Under the pieces are notes generated by a model. That model saw only the letters and a program-made list of their open reading frames with translations. It was not told the DNA's origin and searched no databases. Position numbers and translations under genes: made by a program. From positions 1 to 64,000 of the forward strand of contig JASANC010000859.1 of the NCBI GenBank assembly GCA_030248135.1: DNA of 64,000 bases, in the 5' to 3' direction. The stretch is from Theristus sp. LFF4_11. Taxonomy: Eukaryota > Nematoda > Chromadorea > Monhysterida > Xyalidae. Below, one piece after another: positions 2,420 to 30,958 of the stretch (positions are counted from its first letter, which is position 1; every line of letters starts with the position of its first letter).

Positions 2420-2507
2420 ATGGCAGTTTGTCAAAAGATTAGTGTTCGGTTGCGATCATACAGAGGCGGTGTAGCTTTGGTGGTGTGTGTCGCATGCGTG
2501 ATCCATG
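2420..2507 (+). CDS. Candidate first coding exon of the receptor: signal peptide
   Basis: An ATG at 2420 opens a basic stretch followed by a hydrophobic core (GGVALVVCVACVIH), the layout of a signal peptide. The exon ends at a GTATGC donor in phase 1, which is what the next exon (4325) needs; the joined codon reads Asp and continues into FECSAPSG. No other in-phase start was found nearer. The intron would be 1.8 kb, long for this gene, so a missed small exon or a different start remains possible. Confidence 0.45.
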
Positions 2508-5500
2508 GTATGCTTTACGTCTTGCAAGCATACTCACAACACAACACACATACTACACACAACATACAACACACAATATGTCGGGGCTGTATTGTCGGTT
2601 CTTTCTCTTCGGTGTCATCTTTTCAGTCGCCACAACTGAAAATTATGAAACTTTTCGCATCACACTTTTCCGTTTATTTCAGTCGCTGGTAGGTACCCTG
2701 GTGGTACATCTTTCAGAAGAAAAAATTCGAAGTCGAAGAAAACATGGAACAAATAAATAATATTTGTGAGCTCTTAGAATCAACCCCCACTTGTTACTGC
2801 TGAAAATTGGTATTTTTATTAAAATTATTATCGCGATTTTCTGCAAAAACAAAATGTCCCCCTAGCTGTGATGCCTTGTGTTGTCGTTACATCATGCTAC
2901 GGTTAATTGTTAAATGGCAAACTGGCAAGCTGGACAACCGTGATACAAAACTTTCCACTGGACTACTGTACTTCGTAACAGGTTGTTGTTCAGCGGGCCC
3001 GTTGTCCATCTGGCTAATTGTCCAGTTTGTCAATGGCCCATCAGATAGCCAGTTGCAGTTAACCGGACCACTGGTTAACTGGCCAGCTGGACAGGCTCAC
3101 AATTTTGTAACTGGCTGTCCAGCAGGTCAGCTGGCACGTTTTCTAGCCAACGGAACTGCTTAGCTGGTGAGTTACCCAAACTGGACAACGGGCCATCGTG
3201 TCAACAGAGAACGGGACATCGGGTATGTTGGAGAACTTCGTAACGTTTCAACATTGGAACTTTGTGGCTGTCCAGTTAGCCAACGCATCGCTAAATATTT
3301 TGTTTATAACATAGTTTGTTTGGAAATAATTATGAGTACGGTCAATAAGCTACAAATGCAGGCAGATCACTTTGTGCAAAGGCCCAATATTATGAACGAT
3401 ACACACCAACGCACACGGTGTCGGCTTGTATTCGGTTGGCGGTGATGAACCCGAAATGTTCATGCCTCTATGAGTGAAGCTGTGATAACGTGCCGATAGA
3501 TATTGGAATTTTATTGGCACAATGTATGATGTGATGAGTATCAACATACAACGCGTTTGAAATGATAAATTGCTGAGCAACTTGCAATAAACAGCCAAAC
3601 ACCCGTCTACGGTTGGTTTGCTGTAGTACTGTGCATTTATAATGCTTCCTCACCAAGCAACATCAACAACAGAAATAGAAGAAGCTTTCGCGACCACCAC
3701 ACACTTCAAATGAAATGTGACAGTATTATTACTAATTTTCCGGTTTGCAAAATTAAAAAAGAACGTAAAATACACGCACGCAGTGAGGTACGCAACCGGA
3801 GCTTTGTTGTTTAACGCCGTGATTTGGCATGACACAGACTGTAGAAACCTTTGGTAAAGAAAGAATTTGGAAAGCAAGCAACAACGAGAAGACGTTCAAG
3901 GATTTGTGAAGGTGTGAGCGTTACCTGGAGGCTCAAATTCACCAGGTTTCAGTTTTCTCATTCTCATTTCTTACCAGGTTTTTTCGACAACATTTAGTCT
4001 GTTTTCAGAATGAATACTCGATGAAGGAAGGGCACAACCTCAACGTATCGATATCAGAAAATATATGTATCAGCCAGCCCACAGCAGAAAAAGACCGACT
4101 GACGTTAAAAAAACATAAAAACAGCTTCAACTTTTGGAGTGGCTTGGGCTTGGAAGTGGAATGCGATGCTTAGCACCACACATTATATACTCAGTTCTTT
4201 TGCCGTTTTTTGTTTGTGATTGGTGAAATTACACATCAAGCACCTTTCCAGCACTTGACTGTTCGTATTATTTTCTACTGTTCGTTGGTAAAAGTGCGTG
4301 AAGTGTAAATTTTTTGTTTTGCAGATTTTGAATGTTCTGCTCCAAGTGGTCAATCGTTAGCCGCTGGAGCTACTGCGTACGGACAAGCGATGAACGCGAA
4401 CGGCAAAACTGATGCGGGCGGCTGGGCGGTCGTTCGCTGCGCGGCCAACCACACGTTCTCGGACAAAGCGGCCGCCGAAACGAGAAACGTCAGCTGCGTC
4501 GGCCCAGATTTGTGGTCACAGCCAGTCGACTGCATTCCAAGTGTGCTCTTTGCTTCACGAAAGATGTCACGCAACTCATATCTATCAGCAAGTACGCACT
4601 AATTTAGCTTGCGAGCCGCCGACATCAGATGAGCCGACTTCAAAAAATGTGTCTTGCGGTGAGTGTTCCGAATAAAGCAACTTTCTGCAGTTGCACTGAA
4701 TGAATGTTATTTCACAGTTGACTCATTGGAGTACGATTGTGCCAATTTGACATCGGTGCCTAGCACGTATCACAATGGCAAATGCTACATATTCGATTCA
4801 TCCTCGACCACAACTTTTGCGGCAGCACACACGGCCTGTTTCAACGGTTATAACGGTGCCCTGGTGCATGGCCATTTGGCATACATCTTGGATACTGCCC
4901 TGCAAACACATCTTCAGTCGACATTTTCGGTACCGTGTTTTGGTGTTGGCGGTATACGGCATTTTATTGAATCTTCAAATGCGTAAAGCCATTTACGGCA
5001 TTGGATTTGCTTAACGTCTGTCTACACCTTGTACAGTTGACCTAATCAATCAGACTACTCCCATCCACAACTTTACGCAATTGAGAATCATGCGCACCAG
5101 CAGCCCCGTGTGAACCGATGGGGTACCTCTGTGGCGGACCCTTGAGTCGGTGCCCGGCACGCAATATGAGTCGCGGGCTGCACACCAAGTTGCAGCCTAA
5201 AAAGATTCCATCAGACCCAGTTTTACTGGTTTGAAAACGTTAGCCGAGCACGGCCCCACTAACAGAAATGTTGTCTTGCGGGCCCAAAAAATGTTGCACT
5301 GAATGCCACATGCTTACGGGCTGCGATACCGATTCGCTCTTGCGGGTTCGGCACCAGCTTGACGGCACGCAACCGAGGTAGCCGACAGGTTCGCACGGGA
5401 GTGACGGGCACAAAGGTGTGAGTGCATGATGCGTTGCCGCAGGCCGCAATCAGCAGCAGCGCCCCGTGGGTGGGCGCTTACCAAATCGATACATCAGCCG

Positions 5501-8500
5501 AACCGACAAGCGGCTGGGTCTGGCAATCTTCAAATAATCTTGCGTCGGTTGGGTCTGTAAACACAACAATTTGGAAGACAGGCGAGCCAGATAATGCGAA
5601 TGGCGATGACAGATGCGCTGTGCTTGACGTGGGAGGCATCGATGACCGACAGTGCACTGCCACAATGGCTCGAATATGCGAATATGGTGAAGAATTATTT
5701 GTCATGGATAGCGCTAGCTTTCCTTTCAAGAATCTTTCAAACGCACAACTTGTGTAGATTCGCTGAGTCCCGTTGCGTATAACGGTCGATGTACCACAGC
5801 AGCGTTGGCCAAATTCACGTGCATAGCTCCGTATACAGCGGACAGCGGAACAGACACGATAAACCGGTGCACCGGCGTCGACACGTGGGACAGCACTGTG
5901 CAACCAACATGCGCAAAAAGTCAGTAACCAAACCAGTATCAATCAAACCAACTTGTTCGCTGAAGACATTACAGAACGTGTATCGTGGAGAACACGCAGT
6001 TTTCTGTTGCTGCAGCTTGCACCGCGATCAGCAACAATGGAATGAGCGGGAGGAGCATCGCGTACACTTCAGTGCGTCTGGACGGTCGCCATCTGGTTGG
6101 CACGGTCGCCAACGTCACGTGTGACTCCGGATTTACGCTGAACGTGACAGTTGGCGAGAACGTCGAAATCGCTTGTGTCGATCAGAACACGTGGAACGAC
6201 ACTTTGGCTGCGTGTGTCAGAAGTGCGTAGAAAAAAAACGGCATGCGTTCTGTTGTTGCACCATTAGCCCAACGGCTCAAGTTTCATTTTGAAAACACCA
6301 TCAGTTCTTCGTCCCCGTCGCTAATCTGCGCACGCATCATCCGCTAATTACTAAATTTCATTATCAAACAATAATGCGTTTATACGTGCTTCGTCAAATA
6401 CTGCACCGCTACAAAAACGCTGTCGGTCATTATTCATTAGATACACCGTGCTTTAACGGCTGCCATGGAGACTCAGTAGAGATAGAATAAGCGAATCAAT
6501 GAGGTAATTGACAACCAATTGCGCATTGTAATGCGGTGCAGTTTCATTGGCAGTGGTGCATATCAGCGACATGTTTTTGTCAATTGTGACTCTTTCTTGT
6601 GCAGTAGGGTCGCCGCAAATTCTCTGTCCATATAAATTAATTATTTATTAACAACAAAAATTGACCGGAAATCAAGACCCTTTAGGCTTAGGTATTTTGT
6701 ACTTTGAGACAAAAAAGGCCATTGCTGTCAAAAAGAATGCACAGAAGAATGGCGCCACAAGCGTCACTTTTTCCGATTTGCATGGTGCTTATGTTTCATT
6801 CATCTTACGAAGGTAACTATTGTTTTGCGTCTGTTGTCAGCAATTTTAACTCCATCAAAAAAAACAAGTAAACAAGAAAAGCAGTGAAAAGCGGTCGCAG
6901 AAAAATCATTTTTTAGCATGCACCGATCCAAGCGGCGATCAGTTGAACACGGCAGCTACCTATTTTCATCAAGCGAAAGTTTCTGGCGCGACGCCTCAAG
7001 GTGGATTAGCGACGGTCGTCTGCAACGACAAGCACAGTTTTTCAGATGAAACAACAGCAGCGAACAAAACTGTGACCTGCGTTGGCACGAACCTGTGGTC
7101 ACACTCAACTGACTGCGTTCCCAGTAAGAGGCAAACGCTTCTGTTCTTGTTTTTCACATAAATTCGACTTTCAAATATATTCATTATGTTAAGCTTGTCA
7201 ACCGCTGTCGCCAGACGACTTTGACGCAAAAAATGTCACATGTGGTTGGTGCAATTTGTGAAGCGTTGCTGTCTATACGTGGGTAGCTTTGAAAAGCGTT
7301 GAGAACTTTTGAAAATCTCAGTTGATTCACTGGAAAGTGACTGCAATGCTGTGTCGCACGCGCACACGTTTTACAACGGCAAATGTTATGTGTTTGACGC
7401 GTCAACAAGCACGGACTTTACGGCGGCGCACGCAGCCTGTTTCACCGGGTATTTCGGCGCGTTGGTACACGGTCACTTGGCATACATTGTTGACTCGGCA
7501 CTGTACACGCACATCAATGGCACACTTGGAGTAAGACAACTGCACTTGTTTGCTGCTGACTGCAACAAGAGACGCAAACGATAGTGTCACTGCACCATTC
7601 AGTCCACCATGGCTGCCAGTGATCCATGGATTGGCGCCTTCCAAGCAGACACGTCAAGTGAGCCAGCTGGCGGTTGGGTGTGGCAATCGACAGCCAGCGT
7701 AGCCGACGCAGGACCGGTGAACGCAAGCATGTGGGGCTCATCGCAGCCGAACAATGCCAACGGCAACGACAATTGTGCGCTGTTCGACGCGACATACGAC
7801 GGCTTCAATGACAGAGCGTGCGCCAACACACACGCTCGCCTTTGTGAATACGGTCGGTGAAGCGTACGGATATCCACCTGTTCTGAATCACAAAAAATGA
7901 AGTTACCGATTTCAAATCTGGCAACTAGTCAACAAAATGCTGCAGGTGCCACAGCTGCTGTATCACACGACAACCGATGCTTGTCGACGTCCTTGGCGCA
8001 GTTTGTGTGCATCGCACCGTACACAGCCGACAATGACACAGACATGGCATTGCGCTGTACGGGCGTCGATACGTGGGATAACGCGACACAGCCTGTTTGC
8101 TCAAAAAGTATAGGGCTAGGGCGTGCTTGAAAAAGTTTGAATCAGTTGTGTTTGGACTGTTGAAACTGTACTGGAAATTGCAGCATGCGCGTCGCTGGTC
8201 AATGATCAACCAGGCAACAAGACAATAACATACAGCCAAACGCCACGAACAGACACGCGCGTAGTGGTTGGGACGGTTGCAACAGTTGCTTGCACTGCGC
8301 CGCTGGTGTTTGTCACGAATGAACCAGCATTGAACTGCACTGATCAAGACACTTGGGATAAAAATGTCACACAGTGCACTGAAAGTGTGTCCGCCCTCTA
8401 CTTTGACATGATTGCGAAATTAATGCCAAACTTTGACAGAAATTGTAACTGCCACCTTTAATGCGACAATGCAACATGATCACCTGACGTATAAAGCTAA

Positions 8501-11500
8501 AAAACCCAATTGTATCCATTTTAGCGTGCACTCCACCAAGTGGAACAAATCTTGATTTGAGCGCCACCATCAAGCACTCTGTGGTCACCAACGGCGACGT
8601 GCCAGTTGGGGGACGAGCGACTGTGTTCTGCATGGCCAACTACACCTTCGACAAGGCCTATCTGGCTGAGAACAAAACTGTGACATGTTTGGGGGGGAGT
8701 ACTTGGTCGGAAACTGTCAACTGCATACCAAGTACATTCACTTTTTCATTTATGAATTATACTTTTTTTGAGTTATTACCCAGCAACATATTGTGGCGTC
8801 TTAAAAAATGGTTTTCTTTTTAGCCTGTTTGCCAATATCAAACAACGAGACCGAAAAGAACGTGACTTGTGGTGAGTTGCTTTAAGGAGCAGGATCCATG
8901 TATCGTAGATTACTGAATGCACCGCATGCCGTTGTAATGGCGCAGCAATCCATGTTCACAGGAGGACAGCTGGCAATCGATTGTGCTGCACTGAGCGAGC
9001 CGCATTTCTACGCCGATGATTCGTGCTACGTCGCTGTATCCGGAGCCGCAGTAGATTCGGCAACAGCAGAGACAAAGTGTGCCGCTGGCTTTGGCGGCAC
9101 TTTATTTGATGGATACCTAGCTGTTCTTGACAGCAGCACACTGAAGTTTTTAGTAACAAACATGGTTGGTTTTTTGTTTACAACCGGAAAAACATTTTGC
9201 TTAAATGAAAGTCACTGATGATTTCGCTAAAGAACGTCGCTTGATGTTGTTTCAGTCTGGTTTCACGGGCATGGCTCATGTTGGCGCCTATCAACAAGCA
9301 AACGCAACGGAACCGGCGGGTGGATGGGAATGGAAAAAAGGCAGTGCAGGAATTGTGGTTGCAAGTGTAGCGGCAACGGAGTGGAATGGTACTGAGCCTG
9401 ATGACTCTGGGGGGTCTGAGGACTGTGCCGCGTATCTACCGTCAGCTCACTTGTTGCATGACGTGCATTGTGCCAATTGGACGACAACAAACTTTGTCTG
9501 CCAATACGGTACGCTGCAGATACATTTTCGAAATGCTGTGCAACTATGAATTTTTTTGCGGCACAAAAATTGTCAGAAGCAACATTACAGATAATCAACC
9601 AGTTTCGCATGACGGCCGATGCGTTTCCGGGTGGGAGTTCTATTTCCGTTGTCGTGAGCCGTACACAGCGGATGCTGGTACGGACCTGACACGACAGTGC
9701 ACCGGCTTGGACGTTTGGGACGACTCAACACAACCTGTCTGTTCCAAAAGTACGTGCTCTGTACATAAATCGAAGCAGTTATATTTAAAAAAGCTCCATT
9801 AGCCTATAGCTCATTTTAAAAAATCACGGCGTACTGTGTTGCAGCATGTGCCCCGCTTGTGCATGATGCATCGACAGCAATCACCTACTCATCAGTGCGC
9901 CTTGATGGCCGCCACTTGTTGAACACAACAGCTGTCGTTAATTGCACTGGTAATTCGGTGTTGTTGCACAGCGAGACAGACAACACCACGGTGTTGCATT
10001 GTGTCGACCAAGACGCATGGGACGCAGCAGTGCCAACTTGCGTTGAAAGTCAGTTCCACAATCAGTGTCACGCTTAAGGCCAATTCATGCACGACGTGTG
10101 TATATCCGACACGTCACGTCACGGCACGTCAAGTATGGATGCGTCTACAAACGAGCACGTGTTCTAAAGATAACGTGACGTGCCGGATTGCTATTTTTTG
10201 CTACATGAATGAGACGTGACGTGACGTGACGTGCCAGATAAATTTTGTGTGCATGAATTGGCCTTTACCAACTTTTATGACCGAGTGTTCTCGGGCGCAT
10301 GAACGTTTGCTTGTGTAACCTGCTAACTTCAATGCGATGTCGAACTTTCAGCGTGTTCGTTGCCCACGGGTAATTGGAGTAACCTAAACACAACCGCAAC
10401 CATAGCGCCAACGCTTGCTACAAACGGCAAAGTGCCAGCAAACTATAGTGCAACATTTTTCTGTCAACCCAAGCACGCATTTAATGATACGCCAATCGAA
10501 GAAAACCGAACAATCACCTGCAACGCACACGAAACTTGGGCTGTTGATCTTTACTGCGAAGAAAGTGAGTGCTCATCGTCTCCTTCATGTACACCATGTA
10601 TAACAAAAAATTGACAGATCAAACAGGTTCTTGTCAACGACTTTCCAAAGAGACAAGTCAAAGCGTTTTCCAGCGTGTCCATTGCTCGAGAATGATCAGC
10701 CGACCATGAAGAATTTCACATATCCACAACAATTGATGTCACCGGAAAATCGAGCGATGGTAGGCAGCGTTATGAATGTGACTTGCGTAGCACCTACAAG
10801 TGCAGACTACATATGGGACATGAATCACAAATGTATCTCAATGGATACGTGGGACAACGTCACGTTTGGACAATGTGAAACTAGTAAGTTTTAACATGCA
10901 TACTGTAACAAACGACCATAACTGTAACAAAAAAGACCAGTGGATTTGTTACAGCTTGCTTACCAATAAACAACGACCAACCATATGCCAAGAGCATCAC
11001 GTACAATATGCCGATACGACTGGACGGTAACTACAGTGTATCAACAAATGCAACCGTTGACTGCACGACCACGTACGTGCTGTGGAACGCCTCTGCGGAC
11101 ACCAGAATCCAGTGCACCAACTACAATGACTGGCAACCGTGGCCGTTGCCGTTATGCGTCGAAAGTGAACTATCTTTTTAATTAGCGCCAATAAAGTAAG
11201 TACACAAATAAAGTGCACTAACAATGTTACAGCGTGTCCATTGAAAGGCACAGCTAACAATATCGACCCCGCAGCAACCGTTGCTCCATGGTTGAACACC
11301 GCAAACGGCGAAGTTCCCGTCAACGATTCTGTGGTCTACCGTTGCCTAGCAAACTACGTGTTCTACAGTGATTGGATGGCTCCAACGCGCACGCTCACAT
11401 GCGTCGCAAAAAATACATGGAGCGACGCCATACACTGCATTCCGAGTAAGACCAATGGGTCACCAGGCACAAAATCAACATCTATATTAGCAAAAGAAAT

Positions 11501-20500: not shown

Positions 20501-23500
20501 TTTCTTTTGTACAGTCAGACTGAAAATTTTGGACAATAGCTGATTGGTTGGATTTTGCGTCATGGTTGGACATAGGGTTAGGGGCTTTGAAAATTTTTAT
20601 TTTTATTTTTTGTTTAAAAAATTGGATTTTTTTTAAATAAAAAAAATTGAAATTTTTTTCTCCTATTTTGCTCTGAAAATTCGATTTATGGCATAATTTT
20701 TTAAAGTTCAAACCAAATTTTCTTCCCAACTTCTTTTTGTGCTCAGGTACATTCATTATTTGGTCATTTTGACCGACGTACTCCATGTTTTTTGATTTGG
20801 ATGACTTCTAGGGTCAATTTTTAGCGTTGAAATGACTTAACTGAATTGAAATATCGTTTCAGAAATCGTTTTGTTGCAACTTAGAACATGTTTTTCAGTT
20901 GGTAAGCCATGAGACGAACATGATATCTTGTTGATTGGCGTATGTTATAGGTCTACAATGGAGTTGTGCGATATATTGTCAAACAATTGGAGAGGAGGTG
21001 TTGGTCAATACCACATCACACGACCGTTTTTCAGATACCCGATAACATGGCCACATGTTAAAACTTGCGTGCTAAGCTAAACTAACGTGTTAAACTTGCG
21101 TCTGTCCGTTGCCCGCAACGTCATCGCGAAATCATGGTACGTGTTTTCGATACGATGATTTGAAGAGCGGGCTCTCGCCATGTGGCAGATAGCATAGCTG
21201 GTTGAACCTGAAAGTAAGTGTCTTGGGGGGGGGCGACCGGGTCGACAGGGGTTGCCGACTACAGCAAACAGGAATTTTTGAACACAGTCAAATTTTGGTA
21301 ATTTTCTAAAGAGGAACAACTAAGAACGGTTCAATATTCAAGTACACGTCAAAAATTGTCCTGTTTTACTCTTGAAAATGCAACTTTCCCTCTATGAAAT
21401 GGACATAATTTCAATAAAAAAACGATTTTCGCTCTTATAGTTTTCCGAATCGTTCTGAAAATGGTCTACCTCGTAGCTGAACTCAGCTCGACGAGACGCT
21501 TCGAACAAACCTAACTTGTAAAAAAATTTTAATTTTTTTAATTTAAAAAAATCCGGATTTTTTTCCCTTAATCCTAGTTGGACATCATGCGCGGGCCATT
21601 TTTTTTATTTTTCCGTTGTTTGAGTGTTTGAGTGGATGAATGTTTGGATTGAAAAAAACTTGTGTGTGATTTATGAAATGCAGAAAAGTCAAAAAAAGCA
21701 AATTTTAAGGCAACTTTTATTTTTTTCAGATTTTTTTAAATTCAAATTTTTCTGCATTTCTTAAATGATTAACAAGTTTTGTCCATTAAAAATCCAAACA
21801 TTCATCCACATAAACACTCAAAAATTTAAAAAAAAACTACTTTTGTAGTGAGAATCTATATAATCATGCGGATGCGCGAGCGAGCGTCAGCGAGCGGACA
21901 GCGCATCACGCATAATATGAGCCGTTTTCCCCTCGCGCGCGTTTTTCAAACTTTCTCGCTGCCCTGCAGCGAGCATAGTATAAGCCACAAACTTGGTTCT
22001 GTGCACACGAAACGAACACCCAAAGTTGTGCTTGGAGCCGCGAAAAAATTTTCATCGGACGATTTTTCATACGCTCTAGACACGAAAAACCTATTCTGAA
22101 AATCGTGTTACTTATTTCCCTTTGTCCTTTTTTTTTTCTGGTATGTAATCAACATGTGTGCGCCCTTTCAGTTTTTACCTGCGACACTTTCACAGTCAAA
22201 CAAAAATGTTTCCTGGGGTAATTCCATCCGGAGATTTTGAAAATTGGGTTAATTTTTTACCCAGACCCTGTTTTTGGGTAAAAATTGGGCATTTTTAAAA
22301 GTTCGCAGGGTTTTCACCTGGTTTTAAGTGTGCGCCCTTTCAATTTTTACCTGCGACACTTTCACAGTCGAACAAAAATGTTTCCTGGGGTAATTCCATC
22401 CGGAGATTTTGAAAATCGGATTAATTTTTTACCCAGACCTTGTTTTGGGTAAAAAATTGGGCATTTTTAAAAGTTCGCAGGGTTTTCACCTGGTTTTAAG
22501 TGTGCGCCCTTTCAATTTTTACCTGCGACACTTTCACAGTCGAACAAAAATGTTTCCTGGGGTAATTTCATTCGTAGATTTTAAAAAAAATTTTGCCCGG
22601 GCATTTTTTTCGTCAAAATTGTGCATTTTTTACAGTTCGTAGCATTTCGACTGGGTATCAGCTTTTCACTCTTACAAATTTTGTCTGAGCTACGAAAAAT
22701 AATAGGAAAAAGGTCTAGTCCGTAGGAATTCAATGCGCTGATCACGGATTTTGGGTTAGTTTTCTTACGTGAGCAACTTTAGATGCTGAATCGTGACGAT
22801 TTCGAGCGAATCGGCCGTGGAAATTGGCGAAATCGGTCTAGAAACGAAAAACAAGAAAAGGGTGTTTTCCAGGGTAATTCAATGCGCTGATCACGGATTT
22901 TGGGTTAGTTTTCTTACGTGAGCAACTTTAGATGCTGAATCGTGACGATTTCGGGCGAATAGATGCTGAATCGTGACGATTTCGGGCGAATCGGCCGTGG
23001 AAATTGGCGAAATCGGTCTAGAAACGAAAAACAAGAAAATGGTGTTTTCCAGGGTAATTCAATGCGCTGATCACGGATTTTGGGTTAGTTTTCTTACGTG
23101 AGCAACTGTAGATGCTGAATCGTGACGATTTCGGGCGAATCGGCCGTGGAAATTGGCGAAATCGGTCCAGAAACGAAAAACAAGAAAAATGTGTTTTCCA
23201 GGGTAATTCAATGCGCTGATCACGGATTTTGGGTTAGTTTTCTTACGTGAGCAACTTTAGATGCTGAATCGTGACGATTTCGAGCGAATCGGCCGTGTAA
23301 ATTGGCGAAATCGGTCTAGAAACGAAAAACAAGAAAATGGTGTTTTCCAGGGTAATTCAATGCGCTGATCACGGATTTTGGGTTAGTTTTCTTACGTGAG
23401 CAACTTTAGATGCTGAATCGTGACGATTTCGGGCGAATCGGCCGTGGAAATTGGCGAAATCGGTCTAGAAACGAAAAACAAGAAAATAGTGTTTTCCAGG

Positions 23501-26500
23501 GTAATTCAATGCGCTGATCACGGATTTTGGGTTAGTTTTCTTACGTGAGCAACTTTAGATGCTGAATCGTGACGATTTCGGGCGAATCGGCCGTGTAAAT
23601 TGGCGAAATCGGTCTAGAAACGAAAAACAAGAAAATGGTGTTTTCCAGGGTAATTCAATGCGCTGATCACGGATTTTGGGTTAGTTTTCTTACGTGAGCA
23701 ATTTTAGATGCTGAATCGTGACGATTTCAAGCGAATCGGTCGTTGAAATTGGCGAAATCGGTCTAGAAACGAAAAACAAGAAAATGGTGTTTTTCAGGGT
23801 AATTCAATGCGCTGATCACGGATTTTGGGTTAGTTTTTTAAGTGAGCAACTCTAGATACTGAATCGTGACGATTTCGGGCGAATCGGCCGTGGAAGTTGG
23901 CGAAATCGGTCCAGAAATGAAAAACCAAAACAACGGTGTTTTCCATGGTAATTCAATGCGCTGATCACGGATTCTGGGTTAGTTTTCTTATGTGAGCAAT
24001 TCTAGGTACTGAATCGTGACGATTTCGGACGAATCGGCCGTGGAAATTGGCGAAATCGGTCCAAAAATGAAAAACCAAAACAACGGTGTTTTCCATGGTA
24101 ATTCAATGCGCTGATAACAGATGTTGGGTTAGTTTTTTACGTGAGCAACTTTAGGTGCTGAATTGTGACGATTTCGGGCGAATCGGCAGTGGAAATTGGC
24201 GAAAACGGCCCAGAAACGAAAAACAATAAAAGGGTGTTTTCAGGGTAATTCAATGCGCTGATCACGGATTTTGGGTTAGTTTTTTATGTGAGCAACTCTA
24301 GATACTGAATCGTGACGATTTCGGGCGAATCGGCCGTGGAAATTGGCGAAATCGGTCCAGAAATGAAAAACAAAAAACGGTGTTTTCCATGGTAATTCAA
24401 TGCGCTGATCACGGATTTTGGGCTAGTTTTCTTACGTGAGCAACTCTAGATACTGAATCGTGACGATTTCGGGCGAATCGGCCGTGGAAATTGGCGAAAT
24501 CGGTCCAGAAACGAAAAATAAGAAAAGGATGTTTTCCAGGGTAATTCAATGCGCTGATCACGGATTTTGTGTTAGTTTTTTTATGTGAGCAACTCTAGAT
24601 ACTGAATCGTGACGATTTCGGGCGAATCGGCCGTGGAAATTGGCGAAATTGGTCCAGAAATGAAAAAAAACGGTGTTTTCCATGGTAATTAAATACACTG
24701 ATCACGGATTTTGTGATAGTTTTTTCATGTGAGAACTCTAGAACGAAGTGACGATGTCGGGCGAATCGGCCGTGGAATTTAGTAAAACCGGTCCAGAAAT
24801 GAAAAACAAGAAGTCGGTGTTTTCTATGGTAATTCATTGCGCCGATCACGGCTTTTGGGTCAGTTTTCTTATGTGAGCAATTTCTAGGTACTGAATCGTG
24901 ACGATTTTGGGCGAATCGGCCGTAGAAATAGCATAGACGAAATTGGCCTAAAAACGAAAAATGAAAAACCTGAGTTGTGTGCCCAACGTATTGTGATTTT
25001 GGTCCGACCTTCGGGGCTTATGTAAAAGTCAGAATATTATCTAAAAATGCGGGAGACGCATATAAAAGGAGGAATATGGCCTTGTGTAAGCAGTGAAAGA
25101 CTTGGCTCGACAACCTTTTCAAGTCTCTGATGTGGTACACACGGATACAAGTACATAAGAGTCATATTTTTGCGCCGTTTATTTTTTATTTAGGTTGCAA
25201 GTGGCAACCCTCGTACATTGTAGACAAATGAAACTTTCACATTTGCCTTTTTCTAGCATTTAGCGACCTCTAAAACCACTAAAATAACGATCAGACTTTA
25301 GATCGCTGACACTGGTTTGCACAAAGTGTATCGCAGAGGCATTGGGAACGCAAGGTCTCCTTCTGTGGCAATGACTCACCGGTTTATCCTGGCACAAGAG
25401 TTTGGTAAAAAGGGTGAAAATCAACGGAAGACAACACTTTTTGCACTGGTGCTGCTGTATGCACAGCGGTGCGTACGTTAGCAACAACGATAAAGCTACA
25501 TGCAGCAATGTTTTGCAATCTCTGATGTTTCTGTTTTTTGCACAGAATTTACAGTATAGCCGATTAAACATGGCAGCTTTTTTCAGGGTGCAAGGAGCGC
25601 GCGAATTTTGAATAAAAGAAAAAGAAGTTCAGAAAGCAAATTGTATGCCAAATTTGACGCGTTTTTTAAGCTAATGGATTATCCGTATTATTCTGTTCAT
25701 TCTTTCTCCCTTGCACACATGATTGGAAATTATGTTGGCATTTTTGAAAAAGACAACTCCTAGTCAGCGACTAATCCCGCCTTGACGGACTGCCTCATTT
25801 ATTCGGCCATGCTGTTCAGAATTTCGCACATGATGTGATTTTAGACTAAACTGAAGAGGACAATTGAAAAATATCTAGATAACTTCAAAATTTTTACGCT
25901 TTTCAACAAGCTTGTAAACAACAAACGCGGCGCAAAAATATGACTCTTATGTACTTGTATCCGTGTGTACCACATCAGAGACTTGAAAAGGTTGTCGAGC
26001 CAAGTCTTTCACTGCTTACACAAGGCCATATTCCTCCTTTTATATGCGTCTCCCGCATTTTTAGATATTATTAATTAGCTGCTGCAGCCTGCAGCTCGCA
26101 CAGTACAAAAAAATACAAAATGAAAATTGTCATTGTCAGGTGTGTGTGGGCAAATACGCAATGGTGCTCGAATATTGTGATGGAGCGAACCCATGTCACC
26201 CTCTAACACACGCGACGTGCGTAGACCAGCAGTGTGTCTGCCTTAAACCGCGCTATCACGATCTCGAATGGAAAACGTGTCGCATTAACAGCACACTTTA
26301 TTTCGATCCAATGCTCGGTTTGGCGAAATATTCGGAAGATTGCAATTTAGCGAGAGCTTGTGATCCGACGCAAGGCACGGTATGCCTGCATGGAACATGC
26401 GGATGTTCTGCGGGTAGATCATTCCGCGAGGACAAATGCCTGCTCCGTGGCGAATGCACGAGAGTGGGTGAATTGTTCTACGAAGAACAAGGCAGTTGTC

Positions 26501-29500
26501 GTTTGCCAAAAATAGACGAAGCTTGCCTGTCAATGTGTGAGCCGAACTACGTGATATGTACGGACGACAAAATCTGTAAACTTCCACGTCCAACCGAAGT
26601 GTGCATCACCATGTGCGCGAATCAAACGACCATGGCCTGTAAAGACGTACGTTATACGTTTTCATCAATGACGGCACCTTGTGCCTGTGTATGTATTGTG
26701 GATTTATTCAAACGTGTCCGGACTAAAATGACGTCATTTGCTTTAAAACGCCCGTTTGTCAAAGTACAGGCACTAAAATATCAGTTTGATGTGACTGATT
26801 CGACATTCACCATTTGTTTATGGGAAGAAATCGGCTAAACGGAAAGTCTGGTTTGCAGTGAATGGCAAGCGCATGTTTTGCGGCACATGACGTCACTTCA
26901 GTGGGACACGTTTAAAAAAATAGGTCATACACAACACTGCAAACGAAATATAGGAGAAGTGCAGTTGTCGCGAAGGATTCAAAATGACTGCGGATGCATG
27001 GGAATGCGAAGAGAAAGAAGCGTACGATGGAGAATTATGCAGACCGATGACGAGACTGTGCGATGGTAACTCATCATGTGAGCAGTCTTCGGGACGATGT
27101 CAATGCCCGCCAGGCAAAGTGGCCGTGGTCGAGGGCGACGCAAGACCGTGCAGAACGGCGAGAGTGCCAACTGGTACAGTGATACAAGACTAATCCAATG
27201 CATCACAGCATGTCTCAGTTTTCAGAGACGACTTGGCAGTTGATTGATATTTCATACAGTGACCGTTGATTGCAGGTTCCAGTTGCGCGCACGGTGAGGA
27301 TTGCATCGACGGATCAAAATGCATCGAAGGACGATGCACATGTCCGCCGGGCACGTTCCGTGTTGTCAATGGGACACTTTGCGTTCAACGTTCGTGCACA
27401 ATTCAGCGTTGCAAATTTGTGAGAAAAAAATGTTAAGCTCATAGTACATATATTCGTGGCTCAGGTTATTGCAATGGCACCGCTGACGGCTGGGAGAAAA
27501 CACAAGCTGCAAAAACCGCTTACGGATTGTGTAGTCGAGACGAAAGCGGTGCGTCTTTAGTTTTTCAAGTCATTACACAAAATCGGCCAAAATTCTATTT
27601 AAATTAAAGCTACCAGCTACAAAACACATTCAGGTCACCGATCCCGTGAATGCAACGCCACTGGCCATTGGGAGGAAGTGAAAAATTTATGTATTCCAAA
27701 CAATGTCAACAGCTTTATAGAATTTGTGGTGCGCACAGCTTTATAACATGTGTACAATATAAGATTGAGAAAAAACGTCAATTTTTAAAAGCGCGTCGAT
27801 CTTGCGACTGCATTAAAGTCTGAAGCCGAAACTTGCACCACATGCAGTCATTTGGTTCCAATTGATTGTGTGTGAAAATTTCAGCTTCAGACCTTAATGC
27901 AGTCGCGAGATTGAAACGTTTTAAAAAATTGACGTTTTTTATCACCGTCTATTCACGAATTGGTAAACTTTTTGAGTAATCCATGCAGGTTGGTGCTGGC
28001 GGAAGCAGTGTTGGCGAAGAGGCGGGCGGCGTCAGCAGCAATTTTGACAAATACAAAGATGATCCAAGCGCATGCGAAATGGTACTGGAGGCAGTGGAGC
28101 GCAAAGTTCCGTTCTACTCTCAATGGGAAGCGGAAGATCTCGTCAACCTGTTGTGGGCTGTCATTTCCAAATGTCCGATACCGCAGCTAAAAACGGCAGA
28201 CAAAACTTGGGATAAAAAATTGTCTTTGGTAAAACTTATTCAAGACCATTGCGATACGTGTTTATATCAGACCGCACTGCAGCAGACAGAGTATAATTTT
28301 TGAAATCTTCTATTGATTCCATTTTCAGAAATTTCTATCAATAATGGATCGAATGATCGACGATCATAATCGAATTTATGTCGAAAATAATCCGGCTGTT
28401 TCAACTAGATATTTATTTGTTATGGAACGAGTGGCCCACGTTATGAGCACCAATTTCTTGCGCTTTCAAACAGCCAAAGCGCTGTCCAGGACAATTAAGC
28501 TGAGCAATGGCTCTGAAATTGACATTCCGGAAGCAAATTTGACATATCGCGGCTATTACAAAAAACAAATAGGCAAGATTATTTGCTTTGCAACTTTTCA
28601 AGTATTTCCAGTTTCAAAATAATTTTTAAACCCAACCCATGATTAGTGCTTATGCAAACCGTTCTCCAACAGTGTTCCAAATTTCCGATTCAAAATATTT
28701 TTTAAACCAGAACTTGAGCAGCAATATAGTTTTCTACCCCCTGCTTCCCCAACGCCGTGTACCCTCAGACGTGAATACAATTTTACAGAAGTGCACAATT
28801 ATATAATCCGGCCAGGCCAAGGGTTTCCCGCAGTTGGTAAAGGCGCAAAAACGTTGTGCAGCATGACGACAGATCGTTTGCGCTCACCTGGTAAAGATCA
28901 ACATGATAAACCACTGATAATACATTGGATTATCTAGTATCATGTTATACATGCAGGTATACTGCAACACAAAGACCGATTCTCGATGGCTTGTTCGTTC
29001 CTTCGCATACAATTGCCTACAACGTCCAAGCAACGTCGCAGCTTGCCGGAAGGCTCTAAACTAAAAATGGCATCGCATGTGATCAGCGTCACCACTTCGT
29101 TAGACCTGAGCACAACACGCGATGTCCTCGTGACACTTACCTTCAACTTACCGAAGGTAACCAAAGCAACAATGTAATGGGCACTGTATATTGCATGTGC
29201 GAAATTACAATGCAGCTGACTAATTTGTCAACGTTTCAGCCCATTCCAAAAGAAAACCTGCAGTGTGGATGGCTGGACTTGGAACCCGAATCTGAAGAAT
29301 CGTGAGCTAAACGCCATTCAAAATTGTTTTTAATTTACATGCACATGCGACAAAACTATTAACTGTGCCATTTTAAGACGATTCCGGACAGACGGATGTG
29401 CCGTCGAAAAATCGGTCAACAAAAAGTGTACCTGTGTGTGCACGCACACAACGAACTATGCATTGCGAATGCGCATAGATCCTGAACCGGTGAACTGCAG

Positions 29501-30958
29501 TCGTTGTGTTGTCAGACACCACAAAAAAGTTGAACGACACATTTCCTTTGCACTAACTGAAAATCACATTTCAGGAACCCGATCCCCATTACAATATTAT
29601 TCGTTATCTAACTTATTTCTGCTTTGGAGGATCAATCATGTTTGTCTTGATCTCGCTGTTCATATTGCTCTATATTCGGTATGTGTAACGCGTGTCGCTC
29701 ATGACCGCTACGCTGTGGAAAATGTCGATGATACAAGTGTTTTCTCGTATTGCAGCAAAATGCTAACGAAGCGCATTGTGATTTTCCGGAATTTAGTACT
29801 TTCATTGCTGATGGCGCAAGCATTCTTCATTGGCAGCATGCACACAACGCAATCAGAGGTCACTTAATACTAATCAGAGGCAATTAACTTCGAGCAACTG
29901 ATGTAAAACAACGCCTTTTCAGATTGCATGTCGTATCATAGGCGCCGTGATCCACTTCTGGTATTTGGCATTCTGCATGTGGACCGTCTGCCTTGCGCTG
30001 AATCTGCTCGCGTTGTCGAGAGCTAATCCGCTGGTATGTGAAACCCGTAGTTCACCATGAAATCCAGCTGGTTACAACAAACAAATCTTGCAGGTTGTAA
30101 AAGTGATCGGAGTTGCTTCCTGGATGAATACACTGATTGCGTATGGTCTGCCGTTAGCCTTTGTAGTTCTTACCAGCATGGTATTATGGGACACTGGCTA
30201 CCACGGATATTACTTGTACGGTTAAGTTTCAGAGACACACATTTTATCTGAAATGGCTACCGAGATTATACAAAACATTTCAGTTGTTGGCTGGCACCAA
30301 ACAAAGAATTGGGCTTTGCATTCACCGCAATTATTTTGCCGTTGTTCACGGTCTGTCTTCAGCTTACATGTTGAAAAATGTAAAAACTATGCTTTAGACA
30401 GTCACATGGATACCGGATTTGAATATCACTATTTCAGGTCAATTTTATGATCACAATTTATGCCATAATGAATCCATCCAAAGTCGACTCATCAAAGGCA
30501 CATTTCGAAAGTGCACAATTCTATGTTCATGTCACTGAGTAAGTTCCAAACAAAAAACTTTATAAAAAATTGAAAGCAAACCTGCCAGAACCCCGAAAGT
30601 CGTAACTGCTAACCAATCGTTTCAGTGCCACAAGGCGATTCCTTGTGGTCATATCGCCTCTGCAGCTGCTTTGTTTTCTGTTCAGCGGGCTTTACTTTTT
30701 CCACATCGATCCCGACTTCAGCGTCATATGCATCTACGCGTTCTTGGTGATGAACACAGTGCTCGGTGTCGCAATATTTATTTCTCTCATGTTCAACAAT
30801 CATGAGGTACGCCAATCTCGTTTGATTCGATGATAGACAGAAAGTTGTACCATCATGATCGTGAATGAAAACAAAATTTTCAGGTCAGCGAGGGGTTGTT
30901 TCGCCAGGACTATCAAGTGGCTGCAGGAGAAAACACAAACCATTTCTATGTCTGGTGA
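2420..30958 (+). CDS. Giant adhesion-type GPCR with sushi, C-type lectin, EB, HormR, GAIN/GPS and 7TM domains (62 exons, about 3,990 aa)
   Basis: This reads as one cell-surface receptor of the adhesion/secretin (7tm_2) family. I placed 62 exons by GT-AG sites (one GC-AG). Splice phases match at all 61 junctions and the coding total, 11,973 nt, is divisible by three. Domains in order: signal peptide; three [sushi, 2-Cys linker, CTLD, sushi-like, sushi] modules; 11 sushi; HormR-like/EB/CTLD cassettes; EB array; HormR; GAIN; GPS; 7TM; about 25-residue tail. Family knowledge: GAIN proteins self-cleave at the GPS and signal through a tethered agonist; sushi and CTLD domains bind proteins or glycans, so a recognition receptor is plausible (inference). 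The first exon is less certain than the rest. An automated model might split the gene, most likely at the 20488-26139 intron. Confidence 0.8.
2890..3265. repeat. Degenerate CTGG/CCAG-rich repeat in candidate intron 1
   Basis: Short motifs such as AACTGGCCA, GCTGGACA and CTGTCCAG recur irregularly in both orientations, giving a self-complementary, low-complexity tract. It keeps one plus-strand frame open by repetition, but nothing suggests it is coding. Confidence 0.4.
4325..6222 (+). CDS. Receptor module 1: sushi - linker - C-type lectin domain - sushi-like - sushi (exons 2-7)
   Basis: Exons are 4325-4540 (sushi), 4608-4658 (17-residue linker with two Cys), 4718-4929 plus 5443-5686 (CTLD), 5758-5919 (four-Cys sushi-like, with PYTAD and DTWD) and 6016-6222 (sushi). 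The CTLD has the WVGAY core and a GEPDNANGDD stretch. The EPD at the EPN/QPD position and the acidic residues that follow are compatible with Ca2+-dependent sugar binding. Each sushi exon is phase 1-1, the classic exon-shuffling unit. Modules 2 and 3 repeat this order. Confidence 0.8.
6223..6916. other. Intron between receptor modules 1 and 2
   Basis: A 694-bp intron with a GTGCGT donor and a TTTTTTAG acceptor. I see no repeat, exon or RNA gene in it. Confidence 0.5.
6917..8384 (+). CDS. Receptor module 2: sushi - linker - C-type lectin domain - sushi-like - sushi (exons 8-13)
   Basis: Exons are 6917-7123, 7194-7244, 7322-7530, 7603-7852, 7946-8107 and 8184-8384, with the same phases and order as module 1. 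The CTLD shares the VDSLE start, the NGKCY and AAH.ACF strings and the ALVHGHLAYI block with module 1, so this is a recent tandem duplication. The motif at the Ca2+ site is QPNNANGND, against EPDNANGDD in module 1. The three lectin domains may therefore differ in ligand choice (inference). N-glycosylation sequons are frequent. Confidence 0.8.
8525..10048 (+). CDS. Receptor module 3: sushi - linker - C-type lectin domain - sushi-like - sushi (exons 14-19)
   Basis: Exons are 8525-8731, 8824-8871, 8962-9164, 9256-9508, 9591-9749 and 9845-10048. The layout is that of modules 1 and 2 but the lectin domain is more diverged: the conserved VHGHLAYI block has become FDGYLAVL, and the motif is TEPDDSGGSED. 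The ten-residue block PYTADAGTDL in the sushi-like exon ties it to the other two copies. Confidence 0.78.
10076..10265. mobile_element. Tourist-like (PIF/Harbinger-type) MITE in a receptor intron
   Basis: The terminal inverted repeats are AGGCCAATTCATGCAC and its exact reverse complement, flanked by a 3-bp TTA duplication (10073-10075 with an adjusted boundary, and 10265-10267). TTA/TAA duplications and AGGCC-type ends are typical of PIF/Harbinger elements. The interior carries GACGTGACGTG and GACGTGCC motifs, which are also the core of the minisatellite at 15336-16353. No coding capacity. Confidence 0.7.
10352..14005 (+). CDS. Receptor sushi array: eleven consecutive sushi (CCP) exons (exons 20-30)
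   Basis: Each exon is 207-225 nt, phase 1-1, and encodes one domain with four Cys and a DTW or NTW-type tryptophan near the end. Exon starts: 10352, 10674, 10955, 11233, 11739, 12025, 12316, 12844, 13205, 13502, 13796. Two alternating types are visible: a VPVN/VPVG type and an ND(Q/I)P type with ITY. Several are exactly 210 nt, which suggests tandem exon duplication in pairs. Sushi domains usually form extended rods that bind proteins; this block would hold the ligand-binding end well away from the membrane. Confidence 0.82.
11446..11738. other. Receptor intron, nothing recognised
   Basis: A 293-bp intron between two sushi exons, GTAAGA donor and TTTTAAG acceptor. Nothing else is evident. 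Confidence 0.5.
12526..12843. other. Receptor intron, nothing recognised
   Basis: A 318-bp AT-rich intron between sushi exons, GTAAGT donor and TTGCAG acceptor. No repeat or exon recognised. Confidence 0.5.
14070..15314 (+). CDS. Receptor block: HormR-like unit, two EB modules and the fourth C-type lectin domain (exons 31-35)
   Basis: Exons 14070-14165 and 14230-14571 encode a HormR-like stretch (a Trp, then Cys-x-x-Gly, Arg-Thr-Cys, Gly-Tyr-Trp and a final Cys), followed by two Cys-rich EB-type modules of the form CxxGExCxGxSxC with CVC. Exons 14657-14834, 14916-15057 and 15170-15314 form a CTLD with the VWIGF core and WKFDDC ending. It lacks an EPN/QPD motif, so classical Ca2+-dependent sugar binding is unlikely. 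Splice phases join without conflict to the sushi array and to the next block. Confidence 0.75.
15336..16353. mobile_element. PIF/Harbinger-type MITE containing an expanded minisatellite, in a receptor intron
   Basis: A TAA duplication (15333-15335 and 16354-16356) flanks terminal inverted repeats starting AGGCC and continuing into ACCTGACGTATGC on both sides. The interior is about 15 copies of a 56-61 bp unit containing GTGACGTGCC, CATACGTCTGTATGAACGG and CAATAACA. Unit length varies with the number of GTGCC repeats. All three minus-strand frames stay open across it because the unit lacks stop codons; this is an artefact of repetition, not a gene. Confidence 0.75.
16380..18791 (+). CDS. Receptor block: HormR-like/EB cassettes, Thr-rich linker and fifth C-type lectin domain (exons 36-41)
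   Basis: Exons are 16380-16684, 16874-17278, 17627-17810, 17871-18116, 18189-18336 and 18415-18791. The order is HormR-like (Trp-Pro-His, then CEGG, FC and GVW), three EB modules, a Thr/Pro/Asn linker with N-glycosylation sequons, a second HormR-like unit (NNWTS, CDIGG, DGKW), two EB modules, a CTLD (VWLGL, WKFDDC) and the first half of a third HormR-like unit (GDDIWPATAP). This repeats the HormR-EB-CTLD order of the preceding block, so the cassette was probably duplicated as a unit. Confidence 0.75.
17279..17626. other. Receptor intron with an imperfect inverted repeat
   Basis: A 348-bp intron. Sequence near 17306-17375 (CACATGTTCGTGCAC, then TTATCGATT) recurs in reverse complement near 17490-17565 (AATCGATAAGTGCAC, then GTGCACGAACATGTG). 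It is probably a decayed foldback or MITE. Confidence 0.45.
18792..19101. other. Receptor intron, nothing recognised
   Basis: A 310-bp intron inside the third HormR-like unit. It separates low-GC sequence from the unusually GC-rich exon at 19102. No repeat recognised. Confidence 0.5.
19102..20487 (+). CDS. Receptor EB array, first part: end of HormR-like unit plus five EB modules (exons 42-43)
   Basis: Exon 19102-19733 (632 nt) is the longest in the gene and GC-rich. It completes a HormR-like unit (KCIRT, SRWGAVDSAQC) and then encodes four EB modules in series of the form SCxxGxxCxGDxxC with a C-x-C close. Exon 20317-20487 adds a fifth (CAHGEICGGNSYC). Both exons end in phase 0. EB modules are small disulfide-rich extracellular units with no known enzymatic role. 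Confidence 0.75.
19793..19960. repeat. Dispersed repeat, partner of an inverted copy near 54826-54975
   Basis: TTATTGTGGTC followed by GATGACGCGGGAATTC and CAAAATTGG matches, in reverse complement, sequence in ZNRF intron 2 (CCAATTTTG, GAATTACCGCGTCAT, GACCACAATAA). The element family is not recognised. Confidence 0.4.
20031..20266. mobile_element. TA-flanked MITE with CRE palindromes in its ends, copy 1
   Basis: A 236-bp element starting TATTGTGGATTTATTC and ending AATAGGTCACA. The inverted termini both contain AAACGTGTCC and a TGACGTCA palindrome. Two more copies are in this window (26694-26929 and, inverted, 61161-61395). TA at both ends suggests a Tc1/mariner-type non-autonomous element. 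It sits in a receptor intron. Confidence 0.65.
21335..21600. repeat. Repeat whose inverted partner at about 33998-36125 is split by a LINE
   Basis: This stretch (GTACACGTCAAAAATTGTCC, then CTCTATGAAATGGACATAAT, then GAGACGCTTCGAAC and ATCCGGATTTTTTTCCCTTA) occurs in reverse complement at 33998-34060 and 35946-36125. The two parts there are separated by the retrotransposon at about 34100-35945, so this copy is the uninterrupted form. Confidence 0.6.
22157..22640. repeat. Tandem repeat, about 173-bp unit, roughly 2.8 copies
   Basis: GTGTGCGCCCTTTCA, CACTTTCACAGTC and AAATGTTTCCTGGGG recur at about 22157, 22330 and 22500. The inverted version lies at about 39300-39545. It is part of the 4.2-kb composite element. 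Confidence 0.7.
22720..24960. repeat. Satellite-like tandem array, about 149-bp unit, about 15 copies
   Basis: The unit contains AATTCAATGCGCTGATCACG, TTACGTGAGCAACT, GAATCGTGACGATTTCGG and GAATCGGCCGTGG. Starts recur near 22728, 22878, 23058, 23206, 23355, 23504 and onward to 24833. One unit near 22930-22990 has a 31-bp internal duplication. Units diverge toward the right end. Confidence 0.85.
25039..26066. mobile_element. 1.03-kb TIR module at the end of composite element copy 1
   Basis: Long inverted termini of roughly 140 bp begin ATCTAAAAATGCGGGAGACG and run to CATATTTTTGCGCCG. They are found forward at 25039-25190 and inverted at 25930-26066. The same module is at 36561-37591. The interior shows no transposase. 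Confidence 0.65.
26140..27389 (+). CDS. Receptor EB array, second part (exons 44-46)
   Basis: Exons are 26140-26646, 26960-27173 and 27276-27389. The first is 169 codons with two or three divergent Cys-rich modules (CDGANPC, CVCLKPRY, CGCSAGRSF, ending MACKD). The second continues with CSCREGF and a standard EB module (GELC, GNSSC, GRCQCPPGK). The third is one compact EB module (SSCAHGEDC, GRCTCPPG). Phase 0 at 26140 matches the exon at 20317-20487 across the transposon-bearing intron, which is why I join the two halves. Confidence 0.7.
26694..26929. mobile_element. TA-flanked MITE with CRE palindromes, copy 2
   Basis: Same length and termini as the copy at 20031-20266 and highly similar throughout, including GACTGATTCGACATTCACCA. 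It lies in the intron between receptor exons 44 and 45. Confidence 0.65.
27465..27728 (+). CDS. Receptor hormone-receptor (HormR) domain (exons 47-48)
   Basis: Exons 27465-27548 and 27634-27728 encode a Cys/Trp pattern typical of the HormR domain that precedes GAIN in many adhesion GPCRs: YCNGTADGWEKT, then GLC, then REC, GHW and LC. The earlier HormR-like units in the EB region follow the same spacing. Confidence 0.7.
27989..29489 (+). CDS. Receptor GAIN domain and GPS autoproteolysis motif (exons 49-54)
   Basis: Exons 27989-28228 and 28329-28572 give the helical GAIN-A part. Exons 28711-28890, 28957-29156, 29240-29301 and 29378-29489 give the beta-rich GAIN-B part, ending in the GPS. The typical strand pair is visible (SHVISVTTSLD, then VLVTLTFNLP). 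All four GPS cysteines are present (QCGWLD, TDGC, CTCVC). The cleavage site reads H-T-T-N-Y-A: His at -2 and Thr at +1 are kept, while the usual Leu at -1 is Thr. Cleavage would expose the tethered agonist TNYALRMRI. Confidence 0.8.
28573..28710 (+). other. GC-AG intron in the GAIN domain
   Basis: The exon ends ATAG followed by GCAAGA, the strong GC-AG donor consensus. No GT donor in the right phase exists nearby. The acceptor ATATTTTTTAAACCAG at 28710 restores phase 1 and opens a clean frame of 60 codons. Confidence 0.55.
29575..30958 (+). CDS. Receptor seven-transmembrane domain and short tail (exons 55-62)
   Basis: Exons are 29575-29678, 29756-29858, 29923-30033, 30094-30220, 30265-30350, 30438-30538, 30626-30806 and 30884-30958. 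They encode seven hydrophobic helices, for example YFCFGGSIMFVLISLFILL (TM1), HFWYLAFCMWTVCLALNLL (TM3) and FAFTAIILPLFT (TM5). The conserved disulfide pair of family B GPCRs is present: Cys at the start of TM3 (IACRII) and CWLAP in extracellular loop 2. Exon 30265 uses an acceptor (CTACCGAG) with a weak pyrimidine tract, chosen because it alone keeps phase. The cytoplasmic tail ends HFYVW at the stop 30956-30958. Confidence 0.85.

Follow-up and report, generated by a model that had tools for sequence, protein, structure and literature searches.

A giant adhesion GPCR gene in Theristus sp. with sushi cassettes, C-type lectins and EB modules

Adhesion G protein-coupled receptors (GPCRs) are known for their shuffled ectodomains. 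Among other membrane proteins, polycystin-1 combines a C-type lectin with a GPS and has 11 transmembrane helices. Selectins have the order lectin-EGF-CCP, and complement regulators contain CCP arrays. The gene described here lies on contig JASANC010000859.1 of Theristus sp. LFF4_11, within a stretch of 64,000 nucleotides (nt) that was analysed as a whole (the window). It probably is one intact adhesion GPCR gene, with an extracellular arm of seven sushi cassettes (three with an inserted lectin), followed by HormR-like units, EB modules and two further lectins, and ending in a HormR-like unit, a GAIN/GPS region, a seven-transmembrane (7TM) domain and a very short tail; glycan binding by the lectins would put load on the arm and lead to signalling through a G protein. 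This adhesion GPCR stands out by its array of complement-like modules, into which lectins seem to have been built.

Judged by its sequence, the receptor is placed in the adhesion GPCR family, outside latrophilins and polycystins. With the latrophilins (ADGRL) and the EGF-TM7 receptors (ADGRE) it shares the GPS and the class B2 7TM domain, and perhaps a HormR-like unit in front of the GAIN region. Unlike these receptors, it has five HormR-like units, 20 sushi units, five C-type lectins and about 15 EB modules. In a Pfam scan of ten pieces jointly spanning the whole protein, with listing at E<=0.1, there was no match to rhamnose-binding lectin or olfactomedin, by which a latrophilin would be recognized, and none to REJ, PLAT or polycystin, by which polycystin-1 would be. 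The combination of C-type lectin and GPS is a likeness to polycystin-1, from which the receptor differs by its 7tm_2 domain. Complement regulators and selectins resemble it in the predicted CCP fold of one type of its sushi units (type C). However, selectins have their lectins beside the CCPs, whereas here lectins would lie inside them and the arm is joined to a GPCR.

C-type lectins in adhesion GPCRs have a precedent: amphioxus adhesion GPCRs are reported to carry Lectin_C in their N-terminus (PMC2246102). The available part of that paper names Lectin_C, SRCR, Kringle, Somatomedin B, CUB and other domains; EB modules and a nested lectin go unmentioned in it, and the word sushi is absent from its main text. 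C. elegans is reported to have three adhesion GPCRs (PMC13197933), and both terms, adhesion GPCR and sushi, occur in PMC6208332. In the openly licensed literature, no paper was found that joins adhesion GPCR, sushi, C-type lectin and GAIN, none on an adhesion GPCR with an EB module and none on domain insertion with C-type lectin and sushi; nor was an adhesion GPCR paper found that by its listing describes a sushi- or EB-bearing receptor. An earlier note on this DNA, made from the sequence alone, had stated that it knew of no described receptor with this combination. For the combination as a whole the searches agree with it, while the pairing of C-type lectin and adhesion GPCR was already on record for amphioxus (PMC2246102).

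In a protein database, the GAIN-7TM part had two weak matches among 7,998 candidates scored, namely ADGRE1/CD97-like fish proteins (24% identity, lengths 727 and 821), while the ectodomain had no homologue among 4,272 candidates and the 7TM end no match among 3,432 candidates from large proteins; candidates were sequences sharing five-residue words, of which the most-sharing were scored, so that distant orthologues can be missed.

Gene model, paralogue and long intron

The gene occupies positions 2420..30958 of the plus strand and has 62 exons, with a coding sequence of 11,877 nt (divisible by 3) for 3,958 residues. Most exons were placed by an automatic splice model, after which the model was curated by hand on the sequence; automatic models of the window recovered 48-50 of the 62 exons and contained spurious short ones. 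In the curated model, the open reading frame has no internal stops or frameshifts and the splice phases agree. Of its 61 introns, 60 are GT-AG and one is GC-AG, with the donor at 28573 in the GAIN region. This curation arrives at the exon count that the earlier note had given for the same interval, together with one frame and a coding total divisible by three. The extracellular arm comprises about 3,640 residues. A hydrophobic peak at residues 17-35 marks a signal-peptide-like segment, and all 96 N-X-S/T sequons lie N-terminal to the first transmembrane helix, in a part that contains 258 cysteines.

That the product is an adhesion GPCR with an unusual ectodomain, as had been proposed, is borne out by the exon model, by Pfam (Sushi, Lectin_C, EB, GPS and 7tm_2) and by a paralogue. 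The 7tm_2 match (PF00002) reaches 52 bits over profile positions 5-249 of 250. The GPS (PF01825), with 26.6 bits against a cut-off of 22.5, lies directly N-terminal to the first transmembrane helix and contains the His-x-Thr/Ser sequence. The best matches among solved sequences were ADGRL3 (1.7e-15), ADGRD1 (2.6e-13) and ADGRE5 (4.1e-13), and in alignments to ADGRL3 and the paralogue the Cys-Trp of extracellular loop 2 is retained.

The module counts of the earlier note hold as well. Its 20 or so sushi units correspond to 17 whole sushi exons plus three interrupted ones, and Pfam Sushi was above its cut-off in five of the ten pieces (best 6.2e-14). For the five C-type lectins, Pfam Lectin_C (cut-off 22.6 bits) was exceeded in two pieces (31.9 and 32.7 bits) and just missed in two others (22.4 and 22.2); lectin 1, unlisted at E<=0.1 within its long piece, reached 38 bits (3e-9) when scanned alone. 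The EB modules, of which 14 or more had been claimed, appear as 15 cysteine patterns and as 14 Pfam stretches (3+4+4+3) in four of the ten pieces (best 1.3e-16). The five HormR-like units are recognized as five cysteine patterns with weak Pfam scores: HRM was listed at E<=1 for eight of nine units (five of this gene and four of the paralogue), best 2.6e-4, and the score printed for one unit lies below the cut-off (15.3 versus 26.2 bits). Among solved sequences a HormR-like profile matched PTH1R (0.0016), but complement sushi chains scored higher (best 9.7e-7). HormR-like is the weakest of the domain assignments.

The paralogue lies on another contig of the same genome, C2015, which was listed by both the EB and the GPS genome scans and on which local tblastn revealed a minus-strand gene of the same plan. 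It is collinear with residues 304 to 3947 of the receptor, the best chain consisting of 36 aligned pieces in order. The GAIN-7TM parts of the two genes (joined by hand for C2015) are 38% identical over 593 columns (E 2e-139). In pieces of C2015, Pfam lists Lectin_C (9e-10 and 2.1e-9), Sushi, EB, GPS and 7tm_2 (9.6e-27); the automatic gene models of this contig still hold false exons. Because a paralogue in the same genome has the same module order, this order is more than chance, and a plan common to two paralogues indicates a maintained design rather than an annotation accident. The giant receptor family of this genome has at least two members, the present gene included. It is hardly credible that the locus is a pseudogene or a misassembly. 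Although the draft assembly consists of 3,744 contigs and the introns are rich in repeats, the gene has 3,958 codons without stop or frameshift, and a second gene with the same order is found in the genome.

On the sequence of both genes, the 20487|26140 junction is an intron and not a gene boundary. The earlier note had argued for one gene across it, and a split between 20488 and 26139 is indeed unlikely, because a single exon of C2015 (32361-32069) runs through the junction: it holds the EB module before the junction plus six residues after it, including the closing cysteine. A pair of adjacent genes, the first for a secreted lectin/sushi/EB protein with its end near 20496 and the second for a short adhesion GPCR with EB modules that begins after 26000, was rejected on the basis of this exon and has very little probability left. 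The 5.65-kb gap is indeed the longest intron of the model, and readthrough from exon 43 would add two codons before a stop (GTA CAG TAA, 20488-20496). However, the gap separates the EB module from its final cysteine, which follows on the far side, both parts of the module being present in the single C2015 exon (EB 5.4e-14); the phase is 0 on both sides, and the gap is filled with tandem repeats and a dispersed element. This element has inverted arms of 145 nt (25033-25177 and 25928-26072), and its right part (24950 to about 26079) recurs with 99-100% identity in 39 of the 39 other places scored over that length, 40 of 4,411 candidates having been scored. The intron would be long owing to recent insertions, not because it separates genes.

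The in-frame stop directly past the donor site also bears on another possibility, in which the same gene additionally yields a secreted lectin/sushi/EB protein through readthrough into intron 43, the arm then acting both in the receptor and, in soluble form, as a decoy or opsonin. Premature ends are plausible in a very large intron filled with repeats; the C2015 paralogue, however, has no intron at that exact place, and such a second product is considered unlikely.

Sushi cassettes and their lectins

The 20 sushi units are of three types in a fixed order, A-C-B, which is repeated in seven cassettes, the fifth of them without type C. Each of the 20 units has its best partner within its own type, a result reached in 0 of 5,000 permutations; as the labels A, B and C had been assigned by eye beforehand, this test is not independent. 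The cassette plan, as read from the sequence, is new relative to the earlier note, which had missed both the repeated A-C-B order and the probable nesting of lectins in sushi modules.

The type-C units have four Cys and a Trp in CCP order and, in the structure predicted for one of them, the CCP fold. Pfam Sushi was negative on single type-C units (0/3 whole and 0/3 rejoined units listed, versus 2/2 type A/B exons), which speaks against their assignment as CCPs, and for this reason profile and fold comparisons were used. A type-C profile matched a type A+B profile with E 2.3e-12 and had 13 matches among solved sequences at E<=0.01, all of them complement proteins. The structure predicted for a whole type-C exon (12316-12525) has a mean predicted local distance difference test score of 91.9. 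In a fold search with this model, CCP-bearing entries, judged by their titles, took 50 of the best 50 rows of 149 matches, with TM-scores up to 0.70; none of these best 50 of 149 rows had an E-value below 0.001.

In cassettes 1-3, the type-C unit is split into halves of 51+162, 51+162 and 48+159 nt, whereas whole type-C exons measure 210 nt. Between the halves lies a C-type lectin encoded by two exons, with phase-1 introns on both flanks. Once rejoined, the halves align with the whole type-C units in all 70 columns without gaps (E 3.1e-23) and match the A+B profile with 2.7e-11. The long half contributes most of the score of the rejoined units. With the short half included, the bit score against the type-C profile goes from 57.0 to 64.1 in cassette 1, from 61.3 to 66.2 in cassette 2 and from 63.1 to 63.3 in cassette 3; shuffled short halves scored as well in 0/694, 0/674 and 136/632 cases, the third result not being significant. 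Against a profile of seven whole B/C units, the short halves 1 and 2 rank fourth and first, as 16-mers, among 258 Cys-starting segments of the protein (training units excluded; the third short half, of 15 residues, is unranked). A profile made from the three rejoined units alone found no match in the PDB at E<=0.1.

Each of the three blocks holds 12 cysteines, of which, by our assignment on the sequence, six would belong to a C-type lectin of the long form and four to a CCP, with the remaining two flanking the insertion, one on each side. In the type-C model a strand ends at residue 16, the point where the lectin would be inserted, and C2015 has uninterrupted type-C-like exons. By these comparisons, each of the three lectins probably sits within a sushi module and not beside one. 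It is fairly likely that at least two giant adhesion GPCRs use CCP modules as lectin scaffolds; in the present gene a complete lectin would sit in the loop after the first CCP strand, held by an added Cys pair, and three such cassettes would form the tip of a self-cleaving GPCR. A small disulphide module would then have taken up a whole domain, an origin that the exon lengths (51+162 versus 210) still record. Apart from this, six consecutive 213-nt sushi exons of C2015 (50818-48870) appear to encode near-identical protein, which suggests recent tandem duplication.

Glycan recognition, cleavage and signalling

C-type lectins that bind sugar carry EPN or QPD at the motif site. At this site lectins 1, 2 and 3 have EPD, QPN and EPD. 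Compared to solved C-type lectins, lectin 2 best matched codakine (8.4e-4) and langerin (1.4e-3), its QPNN...ND being aligned to EPNN...ND; the Asn-Asp after the motif is kept in lectin 2, as in these best-matching lectins, which is not so in lectins 4-5.

Cleavage competence of a GPS is given by His-x-Thr/Ser. The cleavage site of the receptor, CTHTTNY, aligns to CNHLTNF in ADGRL3 and to CTHMTNY in the paralogue. As the His and Thr needed for self-cleavage are kept, a cleaved, non-covalent receptor is likely, by analogy with the family.

The most likely role, as suggested by the sequence, would be a calcium-dependent binding of glycans or particles that loads the GAIN domain. Lectins 1-3, at the far end of the arm, would bind glycans of a cell, the matrix, the cuticle or a microbe in a calcium-dependent way, with the sushi array as a long spacer. 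The GAIN/GPS region would cleave itself at His-Thr/Thr, and load on the arm would pull off the N-terminal fragment and expose the segment after the cleavage point, i.e., the tethered agonist, which would activate a G protein. The glycan or pathogen sensor that the earlier note had put forward as a possibility is likewise inferred. With only 24 residues added by the final exon, scaffold proteins would find little space on the tail.

Several points weigh against this interpretation of the gene and its product. Firstly, a tethered agonist as a rule has hydrophobic residues at positions 3, 6 and 7. The segment of the receptor (29378-29489), TNYALRM, has Y at 3 and M at 7 but Arg at 6, where the paralogue (TNYALLM) and ADGRL3 (TNFAVLM) have Leu; this may weaken the agonist, judged by sequence. 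The Arg had been overlooked by the earlier note. Secondly, lectins 4 and 5, as read from the protein sequence, have no EPN- or QPD-like motif, so that calcium-mediated sugar binding looks feasible for lectins 1-3 at most. Thirdly, the 36 pieces that chain the receptor to its paralogue include weak ones, with E-values as high as 8.1, and cross-matching between modules of the same type is possible. Lastly, the whole case rests on genomic sequence.

The missing sugar motifs of lectins 4-5 would also fit a receptor that acts in development or tissue adhesion and has an endogenous protein as its ligand, its lectin folds binding protein and not sugar. The EPD, QPN and EPD of lectins 1-3 argue against this, and it is regarded as a serious possibility that falls somewhat short of an even chance. 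With lectins built into CCP modules, the receptor would join a lectin/complement-like recognition arm directly to signalling by G proteins. The many EB modules suggest that the gene may come from an ecdysozoan, a group whose member C. elegans has only three adhesion GPCRs. The receptor makes it possible to test for a direct coupling of lectin and complement-type recognition to a G protein in an invertebrate.

Feature coordinates and side observations

Table 1. Features of the adhesion GPCR gene, in window positions, with the evidence for each.
Feature	Position	Strand	Evidence and details
Exon 1: start codon and signal-peptide-like segment	2420..2507	+	Curated model, hydrophobic peak
Cassette 1	4325..6222	+	Sushi A 4325-4540; sushi B 6016-6222
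Cassette 1, split sushi C	4608-4658 + 5758-5919	+	C-type lectin 1, probably nested, 4718-4929 + 5443-5686; Lectin_C 3e-9 (lectin alone)
Cassette 2	6917..8384	+	Sushi A 6917-7123; sushi B 8184-8384
Cassette 2, split sushi C	7194-7244 + 7946-8107	+	C-type lectin 2, probably nested, 7322-7530 + 7603-7852; Lectin_C 2.4e-7
Cassette 3	8525..10048	+	Sushi A 8525-8731; sushi B 9845-10048
Cassette 3, split sushi C	8824-8871 + 9591-9749	+	C-type lectin 3, probably nested, 8962-9164 + 9256-9508; Lectin_C 2.2e-4, 22.4 bits
Cassettes 4-7, 11 whole sushi exons	10352..14005	+	Sushi 6.2e-14 and 1.2e-12
Cassette 4, exon starts	A 10352, C 10674, B 10955	+	
Cassette 5, exon starts	A 11233, B 11739	+	
Cassette 6, exon starts	A 12025, C 12316, B 12844	+	CCP fold predicted for exon 12316-12525
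Cassette 7, exon starts	A 13205, C 13502, B 13796	+	
HormR-like unit 1 and two EB modules (exons 31-32)	14070..14571	+	Pfam, cysteine patterns
C-type lectin 4, not nested (exons 33-35)	14657..15314	+	Lectin_C 1.3e-7
HormR-like units 2 and 3 and EB modules (exons 36-39)	16380..18116	+	Pfam, cysteine patterns
C-type lectin 5; HormR-like unit 4, initial part (exons 40-41)	18189..18791	+	Lectin_C 2.6e-4, 22.2 bits, just below cut-off
HormR-like unit 4 (remainder), then EB modules as far as intron 43 (exons 42-43)	19102..20487	+	EB 1.3e-16
Intron 43, 5.65 kb, longest in model	20488..26139	+	172-nt and 149-nt tandem arrays; dispersed element
Remaining EB modules (exons 44-46)	26140..27389	+	EB 3.3e-14
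HormR-like unit 5, adjoining the GAIN region (exons 47-48)	27465..27728	+	Cysteine patterns, HRM profile
Putative GAIN region (exons 49-53), GC-AG intron after 28572	27989..29301	+	Alignments to paralogue and ADGRL3
GPS motif ...CTCVCTHTTNYALRM (exons 53-54)	29240..29489	+	GPS 8.9e-6; alignments to ADGRL3 and paralogue
Seven-transmembrane domain (exons 55-61)	29575..30806	+	7tm_2 7.6e-14
Exon 62: final 24 residues and stop codon	30884..30958	+	Curated model, paralogue alignment

The genome family scans were run exon by exon and missed much; they did not list the contig of the window itself for 7tm_2, GPS, Sushi or Lectin_C, and listed it once for EB. Further candidate members of the receptor family are C475 and C3170, each with sushi and lectin matches on one strand of one contig, C1714, with lectin and 7tm_2 on one strand, and C1781, with sushi and EB on one strand. 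When the fetched, EB-rich stretches of C3175, C2161, C3197, C2192 and C688 were searched with the receptor at E<=0.01, hits were found in C3175 and C2161 only, none of them to the GAIN/7TM part. At about 31560-34787 of C3175, one open frame of 1,225 codons has at least 15 EB matches, in a fetched stretch without a GAIN/7TM match. C771 and C3669 have GPS and 7tm_2 matches of equal score and probably represent two haplotypes, or a recent duplication, of another adhesion GPCR gene.

Repeats are also found in other introns. Intron 35 contains a 61-nt tandem array of 15.5 copies (15421-16335). A dispersed repeat of about 240 nt in intron 44 (about 26690-26945) has at least 40 other places in the genome with 92-97% identity, and the same repeat was seen, by eye only, in intron 42 (about 20030-20250). 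A 149-nt tandem array also lies at 37700-39132. Elsewhere in the window, open frames at 49683-50433 on the minus strand resemble eIF3 subunit K, and a reverse-transcriptase-like open frame of 314 codons was noted by eye at 34143-35087 on the plus strand.
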